From the NCBI RefSeq assembly GCF_900113315.1, contig NZ_FOZG01000001.1, positions 620,001 through 684,000 of the forward strand: DNA of 64,000 nt. Direction: 5' to 3'. This stretch comes from Sphingomonas jatrophae (GTDB lineage: Bacteria; Pseudomonadota; Alphaproteobacteria; Sphingomonadales; Sphingomonadaceae). Of the stretch, positions 45,608 through 47,612 are shown one piece after another. Below the pieces are notes generated by a model. It ran no database searches and was not told where the DNA came from. It saw only the letters and a list, made by a program, of their open reading frames with translations. Positions within the stretch are counted from its first letter, which is position 1. The number at the start of each line of letters is the position of its first letter. The position numbers were made by a program, and so were the translations under genes.

Positions 45608-46363
45608 TTAGGCGTTCAGCGCCGCTTCCGGCAGCGGATCGGCAGAGGCGCCGAGATCCTCGCCGCGGGCCATGCGTCCACCCTGGTTGCCGCGCGTCGC
45701 CGCATCGGCCACCGCATCGCAATACAGGCGGATGGCACGCGCCGCGTCGTCGTTCGCCGGGATCGGGAAGGCGATGCCGTCGGGCGAGACGTTCGAATCA
45801 AGGATCGCCACGACCGGGATCCCCAGCGTGTTGGCTTCCTTGATCGCCAGCTCTTCCTTGTTGGCATCGATCACGAACATGATGTCCGGAATGCCGCCCA
45901 TGTCGCGGATGCCGCCGAGCGAAAGCTCGAACTTGTCCCGCTCGCGGGTGAGCTGCAGCACTTCCTTCTTGGTCAGGCCGTGCGTGTCGCCCGAAAGCTG
46001 CTCTTCCAACGCCTTGTAGCGCTTGATCGAGCCGGAGATCGTCTTCCAGTTGGTCAGCATGCCGCCGAGCCAGCGATGGTTGACGAAATGCTGGCCGGAG
46101 CGACGCGCCGCCTCGGCGATCGGCTCCTGCGCCTGGCGCTTGGTGCCGACGAACAGCACCTTGCCGCCGGCGGCGACGGTGCCATTGATGAAGTCCAGCG
46201 CGCGCGCCATCAGCGGAACGGTCTGGCTCAGATCGATGATGTGGATGCCGTTGCGCTCGCCGAAGATGTAGGGCTTCATCTTCGGGTTCCAGCGGTGCGT
46301 CTGGTGGCCGAAGTGCGCGCCTGCGTCCAAAAGCTCGTGCATCGAGACGGTCGGTGCCGCCAT
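45608..46363 (-). CDS. rpsB: 30S ribosomal protein S2
   Basis: The 251-residue protein has [35 protein letters not shown] and [15 protein letters not shown], both S2 hallmarks, and IPGDPVAI-type [24 protein letters not shown] near the end. ATG with GGAAGGAG upstream. First gene of the rpsB-tsf operon; its 5' leader is about 110 nt if the predicted promoter is right. Confidence 0.97.
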
Positions 46364-46506: not shown

Positions 46507-46530
46507 TTGACGCCGGAACATTAAGAGAAC
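46507..46530 (+). promoter_or_regulatory. LexA-type SOS box with -35 element
   Basis: GAAC-ATTAAGA-GAAC (46516-46530) is an exact GAAC-N7-GAAC, the reverse complement of the alphaproteobacterial LexA box GTTC-N7-GTTC. TTGACG (46507-46512) lies just upstream, a good -35. The -10 is not clear. The site faces the 74-aa gene, 94 nt away. One such match per 64 kb could occur by chance, by my rough estimate. Confidence 0.5.
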
Positions 46531-46624
46531 AGATGGAACCTGCAACGTTCAGGCGCATTCAGGCCACGTTCCATCGCCATCACGTCAGATGCGCGTCGGA
46601 GATGGGGCCAGTCCGGAGGGAAAC

Positions 46625-46849
46625 ATGGTTGTGTTGGCGTCCACTTTCTTTTTCGCGGTTGCCGCGGGATCGCTCTGGCTGATGATCGCCATGTTCTCGG
46701 CGAACGGCGCCGCGATCGTCCGCGCACTCCGCATGCAGGCTCAGCCCGACGTGCGGCCGACCCCGCCGGCCGCTCGCGTCACGCGGGTTCGCCGCTCGAT
46801 CCGGACGCGTTCGGCCGTGGCACCGGCGCAGTGGCGCGCTGCCGCCTGA
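46625..46849 (+). CDS. small membrane protein, putative SOS-controlled (74 aa)
   Basis: The ATG at 46625 has a close GGAGGG. The sequence begins MVVLASTFFFAVAAGSLWLM and has one long hydrophobic segment (residues ~3-32), with the tail (33-74) rich in Arg and Pro ([13 protein letters not shown]), probably cytoplasmic. Size, single helix and LexA-like box upstream recall SidA/DidA division inhibitors of Caulobacter, but there is no recognised sequence homology. Its last 71 nt overlap the convergent pssA 3' end. It lies downstream of a LexA-type box and -35. Function is inferred only. Confidence 0.6.
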   Translation: MVVLASTFFFAVAAGSLWLMIAMFSANGAAIVRALRMQAQPDVRPTPPAARVTRVRRSIRTRSAVAPAQWRAAA

Positions 46850-47612
46850 CCTTGGCATAGCCGCGCATCCCGAGCGGGATCAGCGCGGCATAGACGACCA
46901 CCAGCGCCGTTAACGTGGTCCAGGGCGCGGTGATGAGGGCACCGAAGACCATCGCGATCGCGACAAGCAGTCCGAACCGGATGCCGCGCCGCAGCCGCAG
47001 CGCACCCCAGCTATAGGTCGCCACACTGGAGACCATCAGGAGGGCGACGATCGCCATCCACGGCGCCACCACCCAGGCCTCCCGAAACGTGCCGAGGCCT
47101 GTCCACAGCCAGAGGTAAACGGGCAGCAGCGCCATTCCCGCCGCCGCGGGCGCTGGCACGCCCGTCAGGAAGCCGGCCGACTTGTGCGGCTGCTCGCTCG
47201 CGTCGATCTGCGCGTTGAAGCGGGCGAGCCGCAGCGCGCAGCACACGCCATGCGCCAGCGCAAACAGCCAGCCCCATCGCGGCGCGTGCTGAAGCGACCA
47301 CAGGAACATGATCAAGGCCGGCGCCACGCCGAATGCGATCACGTCCGACAGCGAATCGAGCTCGGCGCCGAACCGGCTCTCGCCCTTCAACAAGCGCGCG
47401 ATCCGTCCATCGAGGCCGTCGAGAACGCCCGCCCCGATCACGCAGGCGATCGCCTTCTCCCAATCCTCGATACCGCCGCCGCCCGCGGCCGAGATGGCGA
47501 ATCGCACCCCGGTCAGTCCGCAGCACAGGGCCAAAGCTGTCACCGCATTCGGTGCCAGCGCACGCAGGGGGATGCCGCGCCGTTCGCGCCGCGCTCGTGT
47601 CGTCTGTGTCAT
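46779..47612 (-). CDS. pssA: CDP-diacylglycerol-serine O-phosphatidyltransferase
   Basis: The 277-residue membrane enzyme makes phosphatidylserine. The CDP-alcohol phosphotransferase signature DG(x2)AR(x8)G(x3)D(x3)D is seen in [23 protein letters not shown]. Several hydrophobic segments follow. The start overlaps the psd stop by 4 nt (ATGA); psd-pssA form one operon, psd first. The last 71 nt overlap the small SOS-type gene. Confidence 0.92.

Follow-up and report, generated by a model that had tools for sequence, protein, structure and literature searches.

A small membrane protein gene with a conserved LexA-type operator is a candidate SOS division inhibitor in Sphingomonadaceae

Between rpsB and pssA in Sphingomonas jatrophae lies a 74-codon open reading frame (ORF) preceded by a sequence resembling a LexA operator. 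Does this box place the small gene under SOS control, and what might the product do? We analyzed the locus within a 64,000-nucleotide stretch of the genome, here called the window. The initial annotation had described a TTGACG hexamer, a GAAC-N7-GAAC box, a ribosome binding site and a 74-residue reading frame beginning 94 nt past the box, and on re-reading all of these positions and lengths, including the start and stop codons, were correct (Table 1). It had also cautioned that about one such box would be expected by chance, and rightly so: the exact pattern matches once in the 64-kb window with both strands scanned, against a chance expectation of 1.21, and 66 of 100 shuffles contained at least one match. 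Within the window the box is thus at chance level, and it gains significance only from conservation in 86 of 89 syntenic gaps.

Table 1. Features of the S. jatrophae locus, in window coordinates.
Feature	Position	Strand	Basis
rpsB (ribosomal protein S2), divergent neighbor	45608..46363	-	ORF; named by eye and in the initial annotation
-35-like hexamer TTGACG of the small gene's promoter	46507..46512	+	Read from sequence
LexA-box-like operator GAACATTAAGAGAAC (reverse strand GTTCTCTTAATGTTC), just 3' of the -35	46516..46530	+	Pattern GAAC-N7-GAAC
Third GAAC half-site, 5 nt past the box	46536..46539	+	Read from sequence
Ribosome binding site GGAGGG	46615..46620	+	Read from sequence
74-aa ORF (P0001), candidate SOS-controlled small membrane protein	46625..46849	+	ATG at 46625; stop ends at 46849
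Single transmembrane helix, codons 2-25	46628..46699	+	AlphaFold and alignment
Conserved helical continuation beside the membrane with I..AL motif, codons 27-36	46703..46732	+	Alignment
Pro/Arg-rich tail, coil in the model, R-A-A-A end, codons 37-74	46733..46846	+	Alignment and AlphaFold
pssA (phosphatidylserine synthase), convergent	46779..47612	-	ORF; named by eye and in the initial annotation

We detected rpsB in 295 of 298 Sphingomonadaceae genomes, with matches listed for the better-scoring part, and examined 107 rpsB-upstream stretches, comprising 100 from the better-scoring list spread over genera and seven others. BLAST placed rpsB in 101 of these, and pssA was the next gene in 89. The exact GAACN7GAAC pattern is found on the small gene's strand in 86 of the 89 gaps, a sample biased to more similar rpsB in which related genomes give non-independent counts. 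Other GAAC spacings from N2 to N15 occur in 2-21 of the 89 gaps, and as control patterns GTTCN7GTTC on the small gene's strand and CAAGN7CAAG occur in 2 and 4. The commonest spacing tested after N7 is GAACN5GAAC, at 21 of 89; a third GAAC placed 5 nt beyond the box may reflect wider or double LexA binding. Of the 86 boxed gaps, 77 have a TTGAC element no more than 30 nt upstream of the box, and in 63 this element stands 4-7 nt ahead of it, compared with 3 of 86 for a control using the reversed or reverse-complement pentamer. In the aligned gaps the favored box sequence is GAACAWANNNNGAACAT, from which the window copy differs at two positions. Three of the 89 gaps (L105, L114 and L159) keep the ORF without an exact box: the nearest box-like site in L105 has at least three mismatches, while L114 and L159 have one-mismatch sites, such as also occur in 7 of 100 unrelated 200-nt windows. 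The gene, the box and the rpsB-pssA context were all present in a further 7 of 7 relatives (Rhizorhabdus histidinilytica UM2, five Sphingomonas and one Sphingomonadaceae metagenome-assembled genome), at least three of which are probably the same records as sampled genomes.

Is this box a LexA operator? Alphaproteobacterial LexA recognizes GTTCN7GTTC at the promoter (PMC12700426). The S. jatrophae genome contains 94 GTTCN7GTTC sites, versus 44 for the same pattern read backward, and 15 of the 94 as counted from the list, the window's included, have an ATGTTC end. We read 20 regions together holding 21 of the 94 boxes, and found two boxes ahead of lexA, one ahead of recA, and others ahead of a uvrA-like gene, an rmuC-like gene and two imuB-like loci (names assigned by eye), with DnaE2-like matches 2.5-3 kb beyond both boxed imuB-like loci. 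For Sphingomonadaceae more broadly, we located lexA with model TIGR00498 and recA with TIGR02012, leaving out partial matches and a lexA locus whose flank was short. For lexA, 25 of 27 loci have a box in either orientation within ~300 nt upstream; for recA, 25 of 26 do. S. jatrophae is counted in both, and eight control spacings gave 0-6 occurrences at these loci. In an anoxia transcriptome of Sphingopyxis granuli TFA, expression of lexA, recA and imuABdnaE2 is induced (PMC6472365). Elsewhere in S. jatrophae, a small, plasmid-like contig of 5,175 bp (C2, L161), which carries a MobA-like ORF named by eye, has, ahead of a 219-aa ORF, a LexA box identical in 15 of 15 bases to the box at the imuB-like locus C4:650878. 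Another LexA-type box (C4:378220, L175) sits at the start codon of a gene resembling topoisomerase IV subunit A by eye.

We searched the gaps for an ORF of 45-120 aa that starts 5-160 nt past the box and has a hydrophobic segment near its N-terminus, placing the start of the search by hand in the three gaps lacking an exact box. An ORF with an N-terminal membrane helix was present in 88 of 89 gaps, compared with 13 of 1720 dinucleotide shuffles of the 86 boxed gaps. Reverse-complement control ORFs appeared in 2 of the 86 boxed gaps in a narrower stretch and in 33 of 86 in a wider one; we preferred the shuffles as a control because the wider stretch contains pssA, which itself encodes a membrane protein. 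The 88 ORFs encode 52-111 aa (median 75) and start at a median of 84 nt from the box. In all 84 measurable cases the small ORF overlaps pssA, whose ends were estimated by frame walking, and in the window the overlap is 71 nt. Across the first 45 codons of 26 non-overlapping pairs, pooled dN/dS is 0.32, a ratio lowered by the choice of pairs at ≥50% protein identity and accompanied by a dS of 0.97, near saturation. We consider the differences at codon positions 1, 2 and 3 of the same pairs and codons (343, 218 and 553) to be firmer evidence. The ORF looks protein-coding and under constraint in these comparisons. In the exceptional gap, L116, the box is intact and only a 28-aa, helix-only frame is present; hand translation finds tail-like sequence continuing in another frame, and a frameshift or an assembly error is possible.

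Searches with the window protein by itself were weak: non-self E-values ranged from 3e-4 to 0.01, and 6 of 29 non-self loci were real by synteny. A single-protein scan of named genomes gave no match. Among six family members compared with Pfam and NCBIfam, no model scored above its cut-off, and one member matched DUF5480 at E = 0.047, under that model's cut-off.

Rearranged genomes indicate which gene the box belongs to. In 12 oriented stretches pssA is not next to rpsB, and we ran a profile search on 11 of these genomes plus six in which rpsB was unrecognized (n = 17), leaving out G022, where the locus meets a contig edge. The gene was recovered in 12 of the 17, six times in its usual place and six times apart from rpsB, with four of the latter copies 1.2-3.1 kb from rpsB and the other two on a remote stretch or a different contig. 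An exact box lies within 250 nt upstream of 11 of the 12 recovered copies, and the other (G050, L249) has a box with one mismatch. Five of the six separated copies keep the exact box, and the 600 nt upstream of rpsB contain no box in any of these six genomes. pssA adjoins five of the six. The box and ORF were also seen by eye in a thirteenth genome, G024, while the profile search did not find the gene in G025, G283, G030 or G112. When ORFs detected by script are pooled with those from the profile search, 96 of 100 copies are preceded by an exact box (85 of the 88 in-place copies and 11 of the 12 recovered). A search across the taxonomic order yielded 29 of 147, far below the rate in the gap sample; of 25 further loci that it contributed, partly from the same genomes, 22 carry an exact box no more than 250 nt upstream, and two of the three unboxed loci look like chance matches. 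Since the box stays with the separated copies and is absent upstream of rpsB in the same genomes, it belongs to the small gene, and we rejected its assignment to rpsB. The initial annotation's proposal of a LexA-controlled small membrane protein is borne out at this level, as box and gene are conserved jointly across Sphingomonadaceae (86 of 89 boxes and 88 of 89 ORFs) and the box follows the gene away from rpsB. Comparative sequence evidence gives good support for a single-pass membrane protein of sphingomonads that is controlled by LexA.

An AlphaFold model made with 45 relatives shows one helix at residues 2-35 followed by a coil tail (mean pLDDT 79.5, pTM 0.42), with mean pLDDT of 93-98 over the first 30 residues. 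This agrees with the single membrane helix and basic tail originally noted in the window, as does the charge of the relatives: the part preceding the most hydrophobic segment has a median net charge of 0 and the part following it +7, the latter being the higher in 86 of 88 proteins. By the positive-inside rule this pattern suggests that the tail is cytoplasmic, which is the probable orientation. The aligned relatives (n = 88) have in common an I..AL motif after the membrane segment, along with a Phe near position 9 in 70 of 88, an Arg near position 56 in 87 of 88, and Ala as the last residue in 85 of 87; 76 of the 88 proteins end in AA. We considered whether the conserved C-terminal RAAA is a mere by-product of the overlapping pssA frame. 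Six copies without a detected opposite pssA (L250, L274-L277 and L119; the opposite-strand scan covered all but L119) end in LPEAA, LPEAA, MRLAA, MRLAA, PRVA and NLA. As these end in A in six of six cases and in AA in four of six (two near-identical), the overlap alone is unlikely to explain the conserved end. C-terminal Ala-Ala is the type of ClpXP signal found in the ssrA and CtrA tails, and its retention in most copies free of the overlap would suit removal by ClpXP.

Is the family related to known division inhibitors? Caulobacter sidA is, we presume, a neighbor of dnaE, and on this basis we took dnaE-linked peptides as SidA relatives. We searched 289 genomes of the class with an extended promoter pattern, which is present in 21 of the 86 boxed family gaps, is absent from the window copy, and so misses most cases. 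The pattern matched in 11 of the 289 genomes, with none for a reversed control among the matches listed. Five of the 11 matches, in three families, lie ahead of a single-helix ORF of 32-35 aa that immediately precedes a DnaE-like ORF. Another two, from a fourth family, have a similar ORF in an ambiguous dnaE context, of 34 aa in one case and running into masked sequence in the other, and the remaining four have no single-helix ORF of that kind. Two loci of one family (L291 and L292) have the SOS-type promoter pattern ahead of a gene that is glutathione S-transferase-like by eye. Among the 30 best-scoring dnaE loci of the class, five with short flanks, three have a box with a small membrane ORF and four a box alone. 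Several other alphaproteobacterial families thus have a LexA-type box and a tiny single-helix ORF upstream of dnaE (L288, L289, L293, L297, L298, L330, L331 and L348), and these peptides apparently form a wider SidA-like family. The upstream sequence of 28 sphingomonad dnaE loci, five of them with short flanks, contained no LexA box; two of the 28 (L300 and L316) have a small hydrophobic ORF, likewise unboxed.

Comparison of our family profile with the dnaE-linked SidA-like peptides gave an hhalign probability of 0.5%, in a test that is weakened by short membrane helices. A class-wide search with the family profile matched 3 of 289 genomes and left two of the four same-family genomes listed without a match; as it scored at most 20 candidates per genome, it is too insensitive to prove absence. 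Its single match outside the family, in G452, is a fragment without a box.

Among the closest parallels are small membrane proteins that block division. SidA and DidA are small single-helix division inhibitors acting at FtsW/FtsN (PMC4211646), and YneA acts by its transmembrane segment on FtsW (PMC13396833). Like the sphingomonad protein, SidA of Caulobacter crescentus is a small protein with one membrane helix, in an alphaproteobacterium, under LexA-type GTTCN7GTTC control; unlike it, SidA has 29 aa and is essentially helix only, whereas the sphingomonad protein has 74 aa and a long tail (SidA as described in PMC4211646). The dnaE-linked peptides, which stood in for SidA in our comparison, have no detectable similarity to the sphingomonad family. 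Caulobacter DidA, as described in PMC4211646, is similar in size at 71 aa and has a single helix, but it is SOS-independent and induced by DriD; the conserved LexA box argues against control of this kind for the sphingomonad gene. YneA of B. subtilis, SosA and ChiZ are likewise damage-induced small membrane proteins that block late division, in different phyla, and YneA contains a LysM domain (PMC13396833), whereas six sphingomonad members gave no LysM match.

We propose that the small gene forms an SOS unit by itself. LexA would bind GAAC-N7-GAAC just 3' of the -35 and block the promoter; upon DNA damage, RecA would trigger LexA self-cleavage and the gene would be expressed. The predicted product is a single-pass inner-membrane protein with an N-terminal hydrophobic helix, a short helix bearing I..AL, and a flexible Pro/Arg-rich tail. 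The transmembrane helix would most likely dock onto a late division protein, either FtsW, the first candidate, or the FtsW/FtsI/FtsN complex, so that septation would be held off until repair is finished, after which the protein would be removed, perhaps by ClpXP via the conserved C-terminal Ala-Ala. SidA-like division inhibition is the likeliest function, which we infer with moderate confidence from the analogy with SidA, DidA and YneA, from the lack of a LexA box at the 28 family dnaE loci, and from the lack of any other recognized domain in six members. The division target and proteolysis are weaker still. Taken as a whole, a LexA-controlled, SOS-induced small membrane inhibitor of late division is the explanation we favor, as moderately probable. 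Counted against it are the length of 74 aa versus 29 in SidA, the lack of profile similarity to the dnaE-linked peptides, the three unboxed gaps with an ORF, the helix-only frame in L116, and the departure of the window box from consensus. We suggest more tentatively, and with some doubt, that the dnaE-linked SidA-like checkpoint is missing from Sphingomonadaceae, by loss or from the outset, and that its place is taken by an unrelated, SOS-induced membrane inhibitor of late division found across the family, with an Ala-Ala removal tag, division restarting once LexA recovers.

LexA regulons also include small membrane proteins of other function, such as TisB, a LexA-controlled small membrane type I toxin with an antisense RNA. 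The sphingomonad protein could similarly be a membrane-active toxin or persistence factor that depolarizes the membrane and does not bind the divisome. Its SOS box, small size, one helix and absence of other recognized domains in six members are what such a protein would have, but TisB is much shorter and lacks a long basic tail, and neither the long Arg/Pro tail and conserved C-terminus nor the near-universal presence in sampled genomes, which is unusual for a type I toxin, fits this reading; we consider it unlikely. We think it a little less likely again that the protein, under LexA control, regulates the envelope or the supply of phospholipids and is linked in function to the convergent pssA. 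pssA is the neighbor in 89 of 101 oriented stretches and beside most of the copies separated from rpsB, with overlapping 3' ends in the window; however, overlapping 3' ends would by themselves preserve linkage, and the copies without a detected pssA alongside retain the box. The SOS unit might instead act at the RNA level, perhaps antisense to the 3' end of pssA, with the ORF incidental. This reading would account for the overlap in every measurable case, but it is very improbable given that the first 45 codons show constraint and an excess of third-position differences and that copies without a detected pssA retain the ORF. Finally, with about one box per window expected by chance and rpsB as the divergent neighbor, the box could in principle serve rpsB or be a chance match, but the 86 of 89 conservation, the TTGAC pointing to the small gene, and the boxed separated copies with box-free rpsB upstream regions make this scarcely credible, and already refuted provided that the separated copies were identified correctly.

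Neither the regulator and its operator nor the concept of a small membrane checkpoint is new. Our literature search, which many subscription papers lay outside, met no published sphingomonad division-brake candidate, and likewise no report of this small protein family, its conserved promoter or its near-universality. To our knowledge, few parts of the SOS response are as poorly conserved as the division brake, the lineages studied each having small proteins of their own. Sphingomonads are a large group of environmental and biotechnological importance, and this gene, which follows a LexA box in nearly all the genomes examined, is a direct candidate for their division brake. If the favored explanation is true, the roughly one hundred diverged sequences would form a natural comparison set for asking which face of the membrane helix suffices to stop division, and the same set would let one ask whether FtsW is a shared target.
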